This document shows, in pieces, positions 10,753 to 18,584 of a stretch of 64,000 bases of DNA (its first letter is position 1; each line of letters starts with the position of its first letter). Source of the stretch: Candidatus Poribacteria bacterium. GTDB lineage: Bacteria > Poribacteria > WGA-4E > JAJDTR01. The stretch is from the NCBI GenBank assembly GCA_028820655.1, contig JAPPIK010000004.1:124001-188000 (forward strand), written 5' to 3'. Both the position numbers and the translations under genes were made by a program. The notes below the pieces were generated by a model. The model saw only the letters and a list, made by a program, of their open reading frames with translations. It did no database searches and was not told the origin of the DNA.

Positions 10753-11865
10753 TCAGATTGCCTCACCGGTCTCTTGGTTGAAGAAGTGAAGCCGGTCGGG
10801 TACAAATTTCATATTGAGCGTTTGTCCGATGTTGACATTGAGTGTGGCCGGTGCACTCGCTCGTAGAATGAGATTTGCACTCTTTTCATTTTTGCCGATA
10901 ATGAGTTCGACAATAGTTTCCGCACCCAAGGGTTCAAAACCGTACACTTCCAAGGCTATGGCGTCGGGCATCGCCTGTTGGCTCACAATCACATCTTCAG
11001 GCCGCACGCCAAATACAACGCGCCCATTCCCCGCCGATTCAGACAAGCCGTGAACGATTGCGGCATCGGTAATCCCAAATTGAACGTTTCTCGTGAGTCT
11101 ACCGGTGAGTCGATCTCTATCGGCAACGAGGTCACACGGAAGCAGATTCATGCTCGGGTTGCCGATAAAACCGGCGACAAACAGATTGACAGGCGAGTTG
11201 TAGATATCCATCGGCGTGCCAATCTGATGGATTCGTCCGGCCTCTAACACAGCCACCCGATCCGCCATCGACATGGCTTCAATCTGGTCATGTGTCACAT
11301 ATAACATCGTCGTGCCTAACTGCCGCTGCCTCCACTTGATTTCGGCACGCATCTCGCTGCGAAGTTTCGCATCCAAGTTGGAGATCGGTTCGTCCATCAG
11401 GAACAGTTTCGGACGGCGGACCATCGCTCTCCCGAGTCCGACACGCTGTGTTTCGCCGCCGCTCAGTTGACTGGGTTTTCGCCCCAAAAGAGGTTCGATG
11501 TGCAACATGGCGGCAATCTCCCTGACGCGCGCGTCGATTTCATCTGCCGACAGTTTGCGCGGGTGTAGTGGGAACGCCATATTCTCGTAGACAGTGAGAT
11601 GTGGATATAGAATGTGGGATTGAAACACGAAGGCGACATCGCGCTCCGCAGGTGTGTACTCGTCAACCTGTTGACCGTCGAAAAAGATTGCGCCTCCGTC
11701 GGCACGTTCAAGCCCGGCGACGCAACGTAAAGCCGTGGTTTTGCCCGCACCGGTCTGGCCAAGCAGCACGAAGAATTCATGATCGACGATGTCAAGATTA
11801 ATGCCGTCAAGCGCGATGACATCGTCGAAACGCTTTGTCAGGTTCTCCAGCTTCACGGATGCCAT
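10753..11865 (-). CDS. ugpC: Sugar ABC transporter ATP-binding protein (MalK/UgpC type)
   Basis: ATPase of a carbohydrate importer, 370 residues: Walker A GQTGAGKTT, signature LSGGETQR, Walker B LFLMDEPISNLD and the switch histidine in YVTHDQIEAM. A C-terminal regulatory (TOBE/OB) domain spans about residues 240-370, as in MalK and UgpC. It belongs with the binding protein and permeases at 12501-15962, but 635 bp of repeat DNA intervene. A MITE-like element begins 3 bp upstream of its ATG, so its leader and ribosome site fall within that element and no good Shine-Dalgarno is seen. Symbol is a family-level guess. Confidence 0.85.
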   Translation of the reverse strand: MASVKLENLTKRFDDVIALDGINLDIVDHEFFVLLGQTGAGKTTALRCVAGLERADGGAIFFDGQQVDEYTPAERDVAFVFQSHILYPHLTVYENMAFPLHPRKLSADEIDARVREIAAMLHIEPLLGRKPSQLSGGETQRVGLGRAMVRRPKLFLMDEPISNLDAKLRSEMRAEIKWRQRQLGTTMLYVTHDQIEAMSMADRVAVLEAGRIHQIGTPMDIYNSPVNLFVAGFIGNPSMNLLPCDLVADRDRLTGRLTRNVQFGITDAAIVHGLSESAGNGRVVFGVRPEDVIVSQQAMPDAIALEVYGFEPLGAETIVELIIGKNEKSANLILRASAPATLNVNIGQTLNMKFVPDRLHFFNQETGEAI

Positions 11866-11867
11866 GG

Positions 11868-12051
11868 TAATACCATTTTTCTAAAATGCTTGTGCATTAT
11901 TCACGCGAATCAGGTAAAGAAACTTGCGTGAAGCGGATCAGGAAGTCTTGTCTCCGTGCAAAGTCGGCGGGGCAAGATGCCCCGCCTACGGAGTAAGTGA
12001 ACGATATAGTTAAGACATCATATTCACTGTTATTCAAGCGAAATCGTATAA
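11868..12051. repeat. MITE-like element, copy 1, abutting the ATPase start codon
   Basis: Begins with TAATACCATTT and ends with AAATCGTATAA, an imperfect inverted pair. The core is a nested palindrome: CTCCGT (11953-11958) pairs with ACGGAG (11989-11994), enclosing a perfect 9-bp stem GGCGGGGCA/TGCCCCGCC (11967-11987) with loop AGA. It shares its organisation and much sequence with copy 2 at 12315-12491. Non-coding. Confidence 0.55.
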
Positions 12052-12314
12052 ATTCAACATATTCTCCGACATCACAACAGTTTGCCGATTGCCGAGTTGA
12101 TTTCTACGTGATTGTTTAGTTCAGTCCGGAACTTTCGCGCCAACAGGAAATCGCGGCCCGGAGAAGATTTCTATTGGATCTCTATCGCAGCCACTATTCA
12201 TTTCGTGATCCTTCCTTATTCAGTCAGTTGATCTCCTACATTACGGTCACGGAGTAGGAACGGGGATTAGACTACGGCACGGCGAACCAACATTGCCAAA
12301 ACTGATGGATAGAC

Positions 12315-12491
12315 TAATACCATTTAGCTAGGATGCAAGTGCATAAATTATTTGAATTAAGAAGAAAAACTTTCCTAGCAAGAAACCTTGGCTCCGCGCA
12401 AAGCCGGCGGGGCAAGATGCCCCTCCTACGATAAAGATGAATGACAAATTTAAGGCATTTTATGCACCAAAATTAGAGCGAAATGGTATAA
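12315..12491. repeat. MITE-like element, copy 2, downstream of the permease gene
   Basis: Its ends carry ATACCATTT (12317-12325) and AAATGGTAT (12481-12489), a perfect 9-bp inverted repeat. The similarity continues inward to GTGCATAAA on both sides, giving imperfect inverted repeats of about 32 bp. The centre has the same palindrome as copy 1 (12406-12426), with one mismatch. About 177 bp, non-coding. The 263 bp between the copies (12052-12314) show no gene. Confidence 0.6.
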
Positions 12492-12500
12492 ACAGTTACA

Positions 12501-13670
12501 TCACTTCTTTACTGCGCCAAAGGTGACACCGCGTAAGAGGTGCTTTCGCATCAAGAAGGTAAACACCGCAACGGGTAACAGGAATAGGAACGTCGCCGCC
12601 GCAATCTTGCCCCAGTCCACACCCCCGGATCCTGTTGCACTCGTGATAGATGGCGGCGCCGTTACAGCCTTTCCTCCCACCTCGGTCAAGACTAATGCAA
12701 ACGCAAACTCATTCCATGCCGTGATTAGGCAAAAGACTGCGGTCGCGGCGATTCCCGTCACGGCTTGAGGAAGAACGACTTTGATGAAGGTTTGGAAGCG
12801 GGTGTATCCGTCTACGAGAGCCGCATCTTCGTACTCTTTCGGAATTTCATCTATGAAACCCTTCATCAACCAGACGGCAAAGGATACGTTGAAGGTGGTA
12901 TACAGCAGGATAAGCCCGGCGTGCGTGTCGCGCAACCCGAGCGCGCTGTACATCAAGTAGATAGGGATTACCACAACCACGGGCGGCAGCATACGCGTAC
13001 TGAGAATGAAGAAGAGCCAATCCTCTTTCCCGACTATTTTGAACCGCGAAAATGCGTATGCGGCGAACGTCCCAAGGCCAACGGCGAGGATGGTGCTGCC
13101 AACGCCGACAATGAGACTGTTTAACAACTGGTGAAAGTACCTTGATCCGCCGTCAGCCAGAGTTATACAGATTGCAATCAGCGCGAATACCGAGGCATTG
13201 ACAAAACCGAAACTCAACTGACGTTCTTTTGTCACGGCTTTGAAGATTAACCAATACGCGGCTCCCACGTAGACTGCCAACAACAAGAAATGGTAGTCCA
13301 TCGAAAAAACGGCAATGCAGAGGCAAGTGAGAGCCAGTAGACCGTTCAGTAACAGCGCAGCGGGATGTCCGATAGTGGTGGTTTGGAATCTCGACCACAG
13401 TCGCTTCGGCAGCGCAAATAGCAAACCGCCCAGCAGTGCTTCGAGGAGGAACACATAGGTCTTCCCCGGGACTTCAGCCGGCATCAATTTTCGATAATTA
13501 TCCAACGTTATCCGAAACAGAAACTTGGGAACTTTCGTCGCAATGTCGCCCGGCGTCTTCAGGGATGTAGCCACAATCCAGTAGATGGGCATGAGATAGA
13601 CGATGAACGCGATCCCGATGACAGCGAGAATGATGTAGTGACTCAAATGTTTGCGTCCAGCGACTCTCAT
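12501..13670 (-). CDS. Carbohydrate ABC transporter permease (MalG/UgpE type) with inserted membrane segment
   Basis: Inner-membrane permease. The C-terminal two thirds are typical, with the EAA loop (EYEDAALVDG then a cluster ending LPQAVTG) that contacts the ATPase. At 389 residues it is about 100 longer than usual: an extra hydrophobic region (about residues 75-170, several helices) lies between the first helix and the conserved permease core. It starts 5 bp after the stop of the partner permease, so the two are co-translated. The insertion is unusual, but the frame is unbroken and the conserved core is intact. Confidence 0.85.
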   Translation of the reverse strand: MRVAGRKHLSHYIILAVIGIAFIVYLMPIYWIVATSLKTPGDIATKVPKFLFRITLDNYRKLMPAEVPGKTYVFLLEALLGGLLFALPKRLWSRFQTTTIGHPAALLLNGLLALTCLCIAVFSMDYHFLLLAVYVGAAYWLIFKAVTKERQLSFGFVNASVFALIAICITLADGGSRYFHQLLNSLIVGVGSTILAVGLGTFAAYAFSRFKIVGKEDWLFFILSTRMLPPVVVVIPIYLMYSALGLRDTHAGLILLYTTFNVSFAVWLMKGFIDEIPKEYEDAALVDGYTRFQTFIKVVLPQAVTGIAATAVFCLITAWNEFAFALVLTEVGGKAVTAPPSITSATGSGGVDWGKIAAATFLFLLPVAVFTFLMRKHLLRGVTFGAVKK

Positions 13671-13675
13671 AATCT

Positions 13676-14581
13676 TTACGTTTCTTCCTTGACCTTGTTC
13701 AGGTACTTCACGTAGATGTTACTTAACGCCACAATGATGATTAAGAGGATGTACGCCATGGCGCACGCCTTTCCCGTATTGTAGTTCCGGAACGCCAACT
13801 TGTAGAGATTCATGGACACCGTTTCCGTAGCCGTGCCGGGCCCGCCCTCTCTGGTCAGCACATACACGATATCAAACATCTTGAACGCGTCCATTGTCCG
13901 AAATAACAGCGCAATAAGCAATAGCGGTGAAACAAGCGGCAACGTTATCCACCGAAACTTGAACCAACTTGAGGCACGGTCAACATCCGCCGCTTCGTAA
14001 AGATACTTCGGGACCGCGGACAGACCGGCCAAGGCGATCAGCATCATGAACGGAGACCACATCCAAGTATCGACAATGACAACGGCAATCATTGCAATCT
14101 TGGGATTGGTTGTCCAACCGATAGGTAAACTTAAGAATGGGCTTAGAAAAAAGTTGAGTAGACCGGAACCGTCGGAAGCCAAGACAAAACGCCAGAACAG
14201 TCCGACGACAACGGGCGAGAGCATCATCGGCAGCAGCAGCAGCGTTGTGATGAGTCCCTTGTTGCGAAACTCACGATTCAGCAAAAGCGCCAACCCAAAG
14301 CCGATGAGGAATTGCGCGGCAACGGCGAGCAGGACGAAATAGGCGGTTGTCTGGAAATATCCCCAGATTTCCGGATCTGAAAGCAGGCGAGAGTAGTTCT
14401 TAACCCCAATAAAATCCGGCGGGCGACCGGGCATTGATGCTTTGTACCGGTGAAAACTTAGGTAAAGCGACCAGAGAAGTGGGAAGATATTCATCAAGAT
14501 GAGTAGGATCATCGTCGGCATGATGAACATCATCTTGATCTGGTAGTCGCTCAATCCGCGTGAAAAACGGGTGGATGGCAT
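13676..14581 (-). CDS. Carbohydrate ABC transporter permease (MalF/UgpA type)
   Basis: 301-residue permease with about six membrane helices. The EAA loop is seen as YLYEAADVDRASSW with a following ITLPLVSP. Standard length for UgpA-type proteins. It follows the binding-protein gene after 70 bp that contain a hairpin (14602-14627), and precedes the second permease by 5 bp, so it is the middle gene of the sugar import operon. Confidence 0.88.
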   Translation of the reverse strand: MPSTRFSRGLSDYQIKMMFIMPTMILLILMNIFPLLWSLYLSFHRYKASMPGRPPDFIGVKNYSRLLSDPEIWGYFQTTAYFVLLAVAAQFLIGFGLALLLNREFRNKGLITTLLLLPMMLSPVVVGLFWRFVLASDGSGLLNFFLSPFLSLPIGWTTNPKIAMIAVVIVDTWMWSPFMMLIALAGLSAVPKYLYEAADVDRASSWFKFRWITLPLVSPLLLIALLFRTMDAFKMFDIVYVLTREGGPGTATETVSMNLYKLAFRNYNTGKACAMAYILLIIIVALSNIYVKYLNKVKEET

Positions 14582-14651: not shown

Positions 14652-15962
14652 TTATTCGTCGTAATAGCCGGCATCCTCGAAGATGGCTTCATGCTTCCGT
14701 GCAATCTCGTCCAAGGCGTCCTTCGCCGATTTCAAGCCGACAATGGCAGCATTCCAGTTTGTCTGACACGCCTCCAATAGCTCGGCGTACTCCGGCACCG
14801 CCCAGAAATCGCGCAAATATGGGAAACTGGCTGCAAAAGCTCTATTGAACGGCGTGGCATCCAGGAATGTGTCGGATTGCAAAACCTCTTTGTGCGGCGT
14901 AAACCCGCCAATCATCGCCCATTTTTCCTGAACCGGTTTTTGCATGAACCATTTCATATACTTCTTGGCGGTATCTTTGTTTTCCGAATAGGACGAAATC
15001 GACATCCCTTGACCTCCGATACTGATGTAGTGTCCCTTGGGACCGGCGGGGGCAATAAAGAAGCCACTCTTGTCGTGGTAATGCGGATTCTGCCCGGGGT
15101 CCACCGCAGCGGGGAGGAATGCGTAATAGTCCATCGCCATCGCAACCTTGCCAGACTTATAGGCATCCAGTGTTTCTTGCCAGTAGTAGTTCGGGGCATC
15201 CGGAGGAGAGTATTTGGTGAGTTCAATATAGTATTCCAACGCCTTGACAGAGTCGTCGCTGTTGATATAACCATCAACTTTGTACGTCTTTGGATCACCG
15301 TACGATCCCCCGTACGACCACATCACCTGCTGAAATCCCATGGTAATTCCATCGTATTCTTTGCTGAAGTAGGTGGCTATTCCGTATAGATCCGGCGGTC
15401 TCGTAAAGAACTGAGCGACATCTCTCATCTCTTTGTAGGTTTTGGGAGGAGCCAGTTCGTAGCCGTATTTGGCTTTGAACGCTTTCATCTCCTGCGGGTC
15501 GTTAAACAGGTCTGTACGGTAGACGTAGCCGTTGGCATCCACTTCGGCGGGGAGCGCCCAATACTCCTTACTCCCCTTCGGATATTCGGCAAAGGCAGTC
15601 ATTGCCGGGCCGTAGATTTCGTCCACCGCAATATTTTCGTTAATCCAATCCGTCAACTCAATATAGTGTCCTCCGACTGAATTCCTTCCAAGCCACTGAC
15701 TGTCACCGATGACAATGTCGTAACGGTCGCTCTTTCCGACAAACGCCGTGAAAATCTGGTCTTGAAAACTGGGCCAGGGAATCTGCACGACGTCAACCGT
15801 TATTCCTGTTTCCTCCGTGAAATCTTTGGACAATTCCTGCAGATAATCCGCCGGCGGCCATTCCGCCCACGCCACGGTTAATGTCTGTTGTGCGTGCGCA
15901 GTTAAAGTCGGCATGCATAACGCAATAACTAAGTAAGGGATGACGAAACGTAATTTCCTCAC
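14652..15962 (-). CDS. Extracellular sugar-binding protein of ABC importer
   Basis: 436 residues with a signal peptide (MRKLRFVIPYLVIALCMPTL, cleavage likely after AHA-QQ) and a family 1 solute-binding fold beginning TLTVAWAEWPPADYLQ. The start is GTG 15962 with AAAGGAG 7 bases upstream. It captures a carbohydrate in the periplasm and delivers it to the two permeases encoded downstream. The sugar is unknown; aromatic residues typical of sugar stacking are plentiful. Confidence 0.88.
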   Translation of the reverse strand: MRKLRFVIPYLVIALCMPTLTAHAQQTLTVAWAEWPPADYLQELSKDFTEETGITVDVVQIPWPSFQDQIFTAFVGKSDRYDIVIGDSQWLGRNSVGGHYIELTDWINENIAVDEIYGPAMTAFAEYPKGSKEYWALPAEVDANGYVYRTDLFNDPQEMKAFKAKYGYELAPPKTYKEMRDVAQFFTRPPDLYGIATYFSKEYDGITMGFQQVMWSYGGSYGDPKTYKVDGYINSDDSVKALEYYIELTKYSPPDAPNYYWQETLDAYKSGKVAMAMDYYAFLPAAVDPGQNPHYHDKSGFFIAPAGPKGHYISIGGQGMSISSYSENKDTAKKYMKWFMQKPVQEKWAMIGGFTPHKEVLQSDTFLDATPFNRAFAASFPYLRDFWAVPEYAELLEACQTNWNAAIVGLKSAKDALDEIARKHEAIFEDAGYYDE

Positions 15963-16081: not shown

Positions 16082-16784
16082 TACGAAGTTCAAAGGAAAC
16101 AGCGGTAATTCCAGAGGAAATCGCATGATGGTAGAACGTGTCGGGTTTCGCTCAACCTTATTCAATCACTTAATCTCCTTCGGAGCGAGGAATCGCGAAC
16201 TGGGGATCGCTCCTGCAACTGTATAGGCAGGAAGCTATCTTGCCCGCCGTATGATTCACATTGCACTCCGCTGGAGTGCATACGCGGATGCCGTTTGTTG
16301 CTATTGACATTGCACTGCGCTGCAGTGCGGAGATTGGTTTATCGGAATTTTATCGGTGATCGCGCTTTATAGTAAAAAGCCCAAAGGCTGATGTGCAGAA
16401 GAGCTCTATGGGAGCTCTATCGTGGTCGCTAATCACCTCCTTGATCCCTCCCTATTCAGTCGGTTAATTCCACCCTACAACTGAAGCGGGGAGTCGCGAC
16501 TTGGAGAAGATTTCTATCGCAGTCATTATTCATTCGTTTGATTTCCTACAAAAGGCTGGTGGGCGGAAGATCTCTATCGTCTTCGCTAATCGCTCATTTG
16601 ATTCCACCCTACAAATGCTTAATCGCGACCGGGAGAAGATTTCTATCGCAGTCATTATTCATTCGTTTGATTTCCTACAGAAGTCGGTTAAGCTATCATT
16701 ATTCAGTCCTTTGATCACCTGCGATGGCTTCAGAAAATCAAATGCTGGTGGGCGGTGCCCACCCTACAGGGTTTCGAAGACCAA
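16082..16784. repeat. Repeat-rich intergenic region
   Basis: No gene is supported. The region contains two related hairpins with loop GCT (16263-16279 and 16312-16328). A perfectly repeated 48-bp unit occurs at 16503-16550 and 16632-16679 (period 129). The palindrome GGTGGGC/GCCCACC spans 16747-16763. Relatives of these units recur at 22872-23394, 34270-34345, 39063-39189, 40591-40686, 47330-47365 and 58902-58960. A unit at about 16129-16150 (TGGTAGAACGTGT) recurs near 47130. Confidence 0.7.
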
Positions 16785-18584
16785 CTACAGGCGCGCGACG
16801 GAGTTGCGGTGGAAGCGACGAGCGGCATCCAAGTTGGCGCGTTGCGGCGCGGTTGTGGTGATGCGTGATCGTACCGCGCCTTGGACGGCGTCGGGGGCGT
16901 CGTTGTGATCGGCGGTCGGGAATTGGCGAAACTGCGTCCAAAATTCCCCTGGCAAGTCTTTCTCGTTGAAGGCGAGCCAACCGTTCGCGATGGCGGGCTC
17001 AAGGGTGGCGATACGATCTTCTTTGTTCTGGTGCTGTTCGTGATACATGATGTGGCCTTGAAAACGATGGCGGTCTTTCATGACGCGGAATGCGTGGTCG
17101 GTGGACTGCCGAATTGTACCGTCGTTGTCGGGGCGCTGCTCGCAAACAAAGAGGGATTTCGGATGTGCGGGCGCCAAAACTGCCTCGGCACGCTGGGCAA
17201 GGAGGATGGCGTTCTCCATTTGCGGGGTCAGCGCCACGCGGTCTATCCATGCCAGAAGGATGTAGCCGTTGACGCCGGTGAGGGAGTCGGGGTTCAAGGA
17301 AGCGCCGCCGGGCAACGGTTCCCAGGCGACGACCACCGCGCAGGCGTAACTGTTTTCGGCCGCATCGCGTCCGCCCATGGTGTCGAGATAGGTGGTGAAT
17401 CCGCCGATATCGTGCCACGGAACGACACGCGCATCGCTGCGGCGAAAGCCTTCGTCGGTGACGGAGAATGTCAGCGCGTTATTCATTGCGAACAACGTCA
17501 TTGAAGGATCGCGGGGATCGTTTTGGAGTTCTCGCATCACGCTGTGATAGCCACGTTGGACGATTTCTTTGCGGACGGCGATGTACGGCAGTTTCTCGGG
17601 CCAGAGCATCGTCACGCCACCGGTCATCTCATCTTGATGTTTCGCGTAGAAGGCATTCGCGTTCTCCTCGCGTTCTTCGTCATAGAGAGTGGTGTCGCAG
17701 TAGAGGCGTTCCCACGCTTTCCAGAGGCGCTCGGCGGTGGGGTGGTAGATGTCGTGGGGATCGACGACGGCTTCGTATCGGAGGGTACGCCATCCCGGCA
17801 ACGTGCGGAGGTGCTCGGAGAGGGATTCAGGGTGTTTGACGGTGTCGACGATGATGGTGTTGGAGTGTTCGCTTCCCAGATCTCCAGCGTACATGAAGTC
17901 TGTCATGAACCAGTCCCTGTCTTCGACTCGCAAGTCGGGATTGAGGCAGCGTTTGGGGTCTTCGATGTCATCGCAGAGTTTGAGTGTGGGTCGGGCGGCG
18001 CCGACGAGAGCACCGCGGGGTGAGGAGCCGCGGCCGAGGGGTCTCAAGGCGATGCCGTTACGGGTGTCGGTCGCGGTTTTTGTCCAGGGGGAGCCGACGA
18101 GATCGCCGAAGTCACGTCTTATGAGGAGATTGGTTTCAAGCACTTCGCGAATTTCGGTTATGCGTTGGCGCGCCATGGTTGCGTTGCGACCAACGATGAG
18201 GATAAATTCTTCGGGTTTTCTGTCCATAGCGAGATCAAAGTCCTTGTAACATATCCGCCAAAGCGGGATTAGGCGGTTTACAAGCGTGGTCTTGCCGGTA
18301 CCACGCGGGGCTTGGATGTTTACCTGTTTCCCGTATTCGCCGGGTTTAATGGCATTGAGAATTTGGATATGAAAATCCTCAAATGGGAGGAGGTGATCGC
18401 TAAGTTTTCTGATGTAAAACCAGACAAACAACTCGGGCCACGGATACCCGGCGTGCGCCCTAATCATGGCGGCTTCGTCTTCTTGATTGGACTTCATCTT
18501 CGCGCGTACAGTGTTCAAGACTCTCCAGCGTTCGCAGTGCTGCATCGCTTGAATCATGTCCTTGTTCGGTATAATCTTCGTCAT
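16785..18584 (-). CDS. Phage terminase large subunit-like protein
   Basis: 599 residues. Packaging-type ATPase: Walker A APRGTGKTT at 92-100, a Walker B-like strand LKLCDDIED, then an RNase H-like nuclease region with conserved acidic residues, ending with NDAPDAVQGAV, the typical large-terminase C-terminal aspartate motif. In phages this enzyme cuts and pumps DNA into the capsid. No portal or capsid genes are adjacent, so it is probably a prophage remnant or part of a gene-transfer-like unit. The ATG at 18584 gives a 125-bp overlap with the upstream gene; an internal ATG at 18467 would give a tidy 8-bp overlap and is a real alternative. Codons are GC-richer than nearby accessory genes. Confidence 0.8.
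   Translation of the reverse strand: MTKIIPNKDMIQAMQHCERWRVLNTVRAKMKSNQEDEAAMIRAHAGYPWPELFVWFYIRKLSDHLLPFEDFHIQILNAIKPGEYGKQVNIQAPRGTGKTTLVNRLIPLWRICYKDFDLAMDRKPEEFILIVGRNATMARQRITEIREVLETNLLIRRDFGDLVGSPWTKTATDTRNGIALRPLGRGSSPRGALVGAARPTLKLCDDIEDPKRCLNPDLRVEDRDWFMTDFMYAGDLGSEHSNTIIVDTVKHPESLSEHLRTLPGWRTLRYEAVVDPHDIYHPTAERLWKAWERLYCDTTLYDEEREENANAFYAKHQDEMTGGVTMLWPEKLPYIAVRKEIVQRGYHSVMRELQNDPRDPSMTLFAMNNALTFSVTDEGFRRSDARVVPWHDIGGFTTYLDTMGGRDAAENSYACAVVVAWEPLPGGASLNPDSLTGVNGYILLAWIDRVALTPQMENAILLAQRAEAVLAPAHPKSLFVCEQRPDNDGTIRQSTDHAFRVMKDRHRFQGHIMYHEQHQNKEDRIATLEPAIANGWLAFNEKDLPGEFWTQFRQFPTADHNDAPDAVQGAVRSRITTTAPQRANLDAARRFHRNSVARL

Follow-up and report, generated by a model that had tools for sequence, protein, structure and literature searches.

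The locus studied here raises the question of what the two repeated elements are that stand in the middle of an ABC transporter operon, how they came to be there, and whether they have altered the expression of the neighbouring genes. The window, i.e. the whole stretch of 64,000 nucleotides of DNA from Candidatus Poribacteria (bacteria of a sponge-associated type) that we analysed, carries on its minus strand a sugar-type ABC operon with genes for a solute-binding protein (14652..15962; Pfam SBP_bac_1 2.7e-34), two ABC transporter permeases (13676..14581, BPD_transp_1 3.2e-14, and 12501..13670, BPD_transp_1 1e-20) and a MalK-type ABC transporter ATPase (10753..11865; ABC_tran 1.8e-29, OB_MalK 8.5e-08, TOBE_2 3.9e-05). 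The preliminary description had placed two MITE-like elements in a 635-bp gap that separates the ATPase from the permeases, and the coordinates agreed with both the size of the gap and the position of the elements within it. The elements take up 349 bp of the gap, and about 280 bp remains without them. Further along the window, a 599-aa open frame (16785-18584) resembles the large subunit of a phage terminase, by look only.

Both elements were found where they had been described, at 11868..12051 (copy 1) and 12315..12491 (copy 2), each in plus orientation, and these limits include the target duplications exactly. The element proper spans 11871-12048 in copy 1 (178 bp, with the right end mutated to CGTA) and 12318-12488 in copy 2 (171 bp), and both copies are flanked by TAA/TAA. 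The duplication of copy 1 stops 2 bp before the ATG of the ATPase (11863-11865), and that of copy 2 stops, in window coordinates, 9 bp before the stop codon of the permease. The terminal inverted words and the central palindrome that the copies were said to share were borne out by repeat and palindrome counts: AAATGGTAT was found at three places in the window, where 100 shuffles gave 0.56 on average and never more than 2, and the palindrome occupies 11966-11986 and, in a form with a single mismatch, 12406-12426, where 0.00 were expected. Two direct-repeat blocks, 75% and 71% identical and spaced 440 and 447 nucleotides apart, also lay at the places described. A known RNA was rejected as an explanation, since no Rfam family reached its gathering threshold in the window; the best weak match in the gap was snoZ196 (E 0.12, 26.5 bits against a gathering threshold of 55).

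The window elements belong to one MITE family, as shown by the inverted ends, the target duplications, the dispersed copies and the empty sites, and thus the term MITE-like was appropriate. The family has at least 45 matches at E <= 1e-3 in the genome of the window (G000), a count based on the 40 candidates that were scored out of 86. For the comparison of copies we used a set of 47 distinct copies, 23 from G000 and 24 from a sister species of the same genus (G001). The inverted ends are about 27 bp long, imperfect, and begin with TACCATTTC in the consensus of the 47 copies, where the left end TACCATTTCTCTAAAATGCTAGTGCAT and the right end TACCATTTCGCTTGAATAATAGTGCAT (reverse complement) agree at 15 of 20 of the first bases. 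The copies are 136-247 bp in length, which leaves no room for a transposase, and 43 of 47 are intergenic according to a rough ORF call. The 23 copies from G000 are diverged, with a mean identity of 72%. Identical 3-bp flanks were present in 39 of the 47 copies, as TAA/TAA (26) or TTA/TTA (13); in six of the eight remaining copies the flanks differed at a single position. With the element read in one intrinsic orientation, both classes are found, and therefore the middle base is that of the target.

Paralogous empty sites, in which the joined flanks aligned without gaps within six bases of the junction, were found for L009 (paralog in the same locus), L066 (L152, L159 and L274) and L071 (L073). 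L014 and L059 aligned less well to their paralogs (70-74%), and their junctions showed gaps or mismatches. At these two loci (L014 in G000:C52, L059 in G001:C93) MITEs of opposite orientation and visibly different sequence occupy the same TTA site, which suggests either independent insertion at one site or replacement.

The two copies in the window are 72% identical to each other, and each is nearer to its own ortholog in G001 (96% for copy 1 and 87% for copy 2, the ortholog of which has a 37-nt unit in its hairpin loop); they are therefore independent insertions, and one duplicated element was ruled out on the same grounds. Since the gap holds both MITEs in G000 and in G001, both insertions probably predate the split of these two species. 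In more distant relatives the picture was mixed. A match to the permease was found in 56 of 58 genomes and 30 loci were read (the genome of the window being included in both counts), with the ATPase in the flank examined at seven of the 30. No ATPase was found in the flank examined, of at most 1.5 kb, at three further f4 loci or at 20 f2 loci. At two f3 loci (L216 and L217) only 3 bp separate the permease stop from the ATPase start and no element is present, which is in line with the earlier proposal that the MITEs split the operon. However, removal of both MITEs from the window would still leave the remaining 280 bp or so, and the gaps in three f4 relatives measure 191, 1270 and 1109 bp, and MITE arms were not found in any of them; the two longer gaps contain what looks, by eye, like another open frame. 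Comparison with relatives thus supplied a tight junction without the element as well as loose ones without it, and loosening of the operon therefore need not be due to the MITE.

The centre of the element is a GTAG-type REP: on the minus strand the palindrome consists of GTAG followed by a GC-rich hairpin, and it is dispersed. In copy 1 the REP lies at 11966..11989 (minus strand), where it reads GTAGGCGGGGCATCTTGCCCCGCC on that strand, and in copy 2 at 12406..12429 (minus strand), where the stem has one mismatch. The segment 11960-11995 folds at -21.0 kcal/mol (z -4.57). In a related genome (G007, locus L036) the REP is present in plus orientation at 899-921 and in minus orientation at 1504-1526, i.e. 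inverted around a Y1_Tnp ORF of 180 aa (954-1496; PF01797 2.3e-11), 33 bp before it and 8 bp after it, with a third copy inside the ORF at 1269-1291. This is the arrangement in which GTAG REPs flank RAYT genes, as described in PMC3733652. In G004 (L278) a variant of the REP accompanies a Y1 domain, there in a single orientation only. The central REP was found at none of the seven Y1 loci of G000; around two of these (L269 and L270) lies another GTAG repeat in inverted arrangement. The REP centre may have been acquired or spread through a RAYT. In Anabaena variabilis, according to the same source, GTAG-15 REPs have inserted into long palindromes, and a REP within a palindromic element therefore has a precedent.

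Several arrangements of related repeats were observed at other loci. The RAYT-like ORF of L036 holds two translated REP-related copies (GQDAPPT peptide repeats), a tandem array of GTGG-tagged palindromes GGGGAATCCCTTCCCC lies upstream of a RAYT-like gene in G000 (L268 900-1200), and in G004 the central REP occurs in a run with a spacing of about 40 bp (L280, G004:C10:239500-243500).

The loop of the REP is exchangeable. In some MITE copies the loop bases GCAT are replaced by a 37-nt hairpin unit, here called SR, and two ortholog pairs differ in this respect in opposite directions: copy 2 has SR in its loop in G001 and the plain REP in G000, and at an orthologous site with flanks 89-90% identical (L021 in G000, L065 in G001) SR is present in G000 and the plain form in G001. 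Among the 47 copies, 32 hairpin tips were REP, 14 were SR and one was of another type, in a sample that is biased, since the G001 copies fetched were mainly those most like copy 1. An older, dispersed SR unit, with GTAG before it, lies between the two MITEs of the window (12160..12239, minus strand). It is interrupted in G000 by a second, nested SR (approximately 12175..12210, minus strand), which is absent from G001, where the unit is uninterrupted; the net difference is 33 nt more in G000. Elsewhere in the window, an SR-like cluster of direct repeats with 61-nt and 43-nt blocks (16155-16720) creates a repetitive open frame at 16501-16908.

At no more than one mismatch, SR was counted 482 times in G000, 369 in G001, 66 in G004, 10 in G014 and once in G010, and it was found in none of the other 53 of the 58 genomes; the reversed control gave 0. 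Covariation was examined in 146 SR units, 133 of them distinct. The share of distinct units with a standard pair was 86.5, 88.7, 94.0 and 91.7% at the four stem positions, where the shuffles averaged 60.1, 58.6, 53.0 and 81.2%, and none of 2000 shuffles reached any of these values, in a statistic that ignores the kinship of the copies. Three slid controls came near or above the true value for single pairs (0.83 and 0.81 against 0.887; 0.96 against 0.917). Pairs of the G-U type outnumbered A-C by 72 to 15, so that the constraint on SR acts on one strand. The search pattern fixed the GA steps and the loop at up to three mismatches and left the stem bases free, and hence the conservation of the GA steps and loop is partly ascertainment. 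The three SR-containing stretches that were folded had no unusual stability (z -0.43 to -0.87). In at least 54 of the 146 units a GTAG begins 4-9 nt ahead of the unit, and in 28 of these it is 9 nt away, as in the REP loop; 85 units have no GTAG in the preceding 30 nt. A RAYT-specific link of SR was rejected, since SR units numbered 0.47 per kb across 13 Y1 loci and 0.35 per kb across 13 DDE loci; the figure for the window was 0.09 per kb. Tentatively, and at less than even odds, SR could be a new class of mobile hairpin with a conserved tandem G-A step and a G-R-A-N-A loop, compensating stem changes and one-strand wobbles, which has spread by insertion into hairpin loops, be they those of REPs, of MITE centres or of other SR units.

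Matches to the MITE were present in nine of 39 genomes searched, G000 included. Among the matches listed, those of near full length and high identity came only from G001 of the same genus, and the remaining matching genomes had mostly the short central palindrome. A shorter copy of 156 bp with TAA/TAA flanks was found in an f4 genome (G014, L040). The end pattern, at up to two mismatches, occurred in 22 of the 39 genomes (0 in the reversed control), and a scan of genome contigs for the exact pattern returned 18 stretches, of which 14 were from a Candidatus Poribacteria MAG (JAJDTR), one from a second poribacterial MAG, two from cyanobacteria and one from Sulfurihydrogenibium. The last of these (L150) was set aside as a chance match without a partner end. 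An element in another member of the Poribacteria (JAJECK, L151 5748-5932) has the same ends and TAA/TAA flanks with a different central palindrome, GGCGAGGTTAGGAAACCTCGCC. The viral contigs scanned gave one stretch, without a partner end, and a plasmid search with the cyanobacterial MITE gave four places at E of about 1, including a 26-base match in a cyanobacterial plasmid. Among the literature matches listed for repeats in Poribacteria, in loose lists that are no proof of absence, there was no paper on these elements.

Through the end pattern we found an element of 1137 bp in Nostocales cyanobacterium HT-58-2, with nine copies that are 100% identical. In that scan the reversed control gave 21 matches, against 80 for the pattern itself, and the evidence is accordingly the nine paired copies rather than single matches. 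Read in one intrinsic orientation, they are flanked by TTA/TTA (3) or TAA/TAA (6). A 183-aa ORF of this element matches PF13358 (2.5e-17) and the NCBIfam IS630 model NF033545 (1.5e-35, 123.1 bits, cut-off 100), and a 172-aa ORF has HTH domains and matches the IS630 model under the cut-off (7.1e-19, 68.4 bits). Over the first 20 bases, the consensus left end of the MITE agrees with the left end of the insertion sequence at 17 positions and with its right end at 14, and the right end of the MITE agrees with the left end of the insertion sequence at 13. IS630-family elements are described, in PMC2170065, as duplicating 2-bp TA, whereas all nine copies of the HT-58-2 element have 3-bp TWA; this signature is therefore atypical. 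ISY100 (IS630/Tc1-mariner) of the same source is a relative in that the cyanobacterial element with the ends of the MITE encodes an IS630-family transposase, and differs in duplicating TA, where the MITE and the cyanobacterial element have TWA.

The preliminary description had suggested searching the genome for the ends and for an autonomous transposase with the same ends. The ends are dispersed in G000, but an autonomous partner was found in neither G000 nor G001, and the autonomous element found with matching ends is the cyanobacterial IS630. With the 183-aa ORF as the query, no IS630 relative was detected in G000 or G001 at E <= 1e-3; relatives were detected in four of the ten genomes queried. 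The 26 IS630 loci read in f2 contained five loose end pairs in three loci, but no pair combined equal flanks with TACCATTTC at each end, and G022 and G013 have the end pattern but no IS630 match. The one long G000 element found with both ends (2.09 kb; G000:C36:39655-41743) was rejected as an autonomous copy because of its nested repeats and the lack of a transposase ORF. The same locus (L132 1156-3244) can be described as a MITE swollen to about 2.09 kb by SR units and further GTAG-like repeats nested within it; part of the stretch is masked.

The three-base duplications could also be read as the mark of transposition of the PIF/Harbinger or IS5 type, for which TTA/TAA would be the expected target, and IS5-like fragments (PF13359) do occur in both f1 genomes (G000 and G001). 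However, the end of the IS5-like element is TAGACATCTTTCC in the copies inspected and not TACCATTTC, on which ground the IS5-type elements were rejected as partners, no matching DDE_Tnp_4 element was found, and the sole autonomous element found with matching ends is an IS630; we regard this origin as highly improbable. The transposase that mobilised the MITE would instead be of the IS630 type and would generate 3-bp TWA duplications, like that of the cyanobacterial element, which belongs to another phylum. We thus assign a probability of roughly 0.8 to the reading that the window holds two independent insertions of one MITE family with a GTAG REP centre and an IS630-type mobiliser making TWA duplications; both copies would have entered before G000 and G001 separated.

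As to expression, it had been proposed that the element may supply a promoter or a ribosome site to the ATPase, and so rewire the operon. The leader of the ATPase is indeed element up to 2 bp before the ATG. MITEs elsewhere offer parallels: PMC4596501 reports promoter elements in a MITE of P. gingivalis, and a Microcystis MITE in an sbp gene accompanies a more than 2-fold higher expression of the ABC cluster (PMC11448079). In the gap, however, sigma-70-like sites (sigma-70 consensus only) numbered none on the gene strand and one on the other strand, with 1.3 expected, and the anti-Shine-Dalgarno energy of the leader, -2.9 in both G000 and G001, is no better than the random median of -3.0 (the median of 31 long ORFs of the window is -5.0). 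Without copy 1 the leader would have -6.6 at a long spacing; it would seem that a possible ribosome site was displaced by copy 1, and that none came with it. The leaders of orthologs have -5.1 and -7.2 in f3 and -1.4, -10.2 and -2.1 in f4, and since two f4 orthologs lack the MITE and are weak too, weak leaders occur without it and a weak score does not rule out translation. Supply of a promoter or ribosome site is thus unlikely, and this part of the preliminary description found no support.

We consider it possible, at odds clearly under even, that the elements act through RNA structure. The minus-strand transcript of copy 1 has a predicted fold of -52.2 kcal/mol (z -3.66), with none of 200 shuffles as stable, and a single weak terminator-like site was found on the gene strand, in copy 2, where 0.6 were expected. 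In what is the least certain part of our reading, the elements, transcribed with the operon, would form strong hairpins that would protect the upstream messages and lower the expression of the ATPase, rather than supply a promoter; an effect on message stability is proposed because of the behaviour of REPs and MITEs reported in PMC3733652. That the elements are instead inert decay products in a loosened operon has a chance that approaches even, given that nearly all copies in the set lie between genes, that the G000 copies are diverged as described above, and that no partner transposase was found in G000 or G001. On the other side, the strong structures remain, and copy 1 is 96% identical between the two species while its flanks of 180 and 126 bp are 79% and 93% identical. 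In the hairpin reading, it is these structures that would matter to the operon.

The element is of a known kind; what is unusual is its swappable hairpin centre and its three-base insertion signature. It resembles BrickBuilt of P. gingivalis (PMC4596501) in being short, non-coding, intergenic and dispersed, with inverted ends and a central repeat, and differs in that its centre is a GTAG REP with a loop exchangeable for another structured unit and in its 3-bp TWA duplication. Nezha of cyanobacteria would be alike in general form, as a short, non-coding, dispersed MITE with inverted ends. The 187-nt Microcystis MITE is, like ours, in a transporter cluster (sbp-cysTWA), but it lies inside the sbp gene and is attributed, in PMC11448079, to an ISL3-type transposase with 8-nt repeats. 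Chunjie of Geobacter, going by its description, is a MITE said to change an operon. The centre itself shares with the GTAG REPs and RAYTs of PMC3733652 the GTAG tag, the GC-rich hairpin and the position beside a Y1 transposase gene. REP loops are reported there to vary in length, and the difference, as far as that source goes, is that the loop insert here itself belongs to a family of dispersed hairpins in which the stems covary and a tandem G-A step is present.

The locus thus shows, at orthologous positions in two species, how a pair of mobile insertions occupies the gap of a transporter operon whose genes lie close together in some relatives, and it connects a MITE of Poribacteria with a transposase of the IS630 type that has an unusual 3-bp target duplication. 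Its repeats are nested (MITE, REP and hairpin unit), and comparison of the sister species reveals the exchange of their loops directly. If the covariation of SR reflects function, SR would be a new structured repeat family, and if the proposed reading of SR is true, the MITEs would become carriers of structured RNA or single-stranded DNA.
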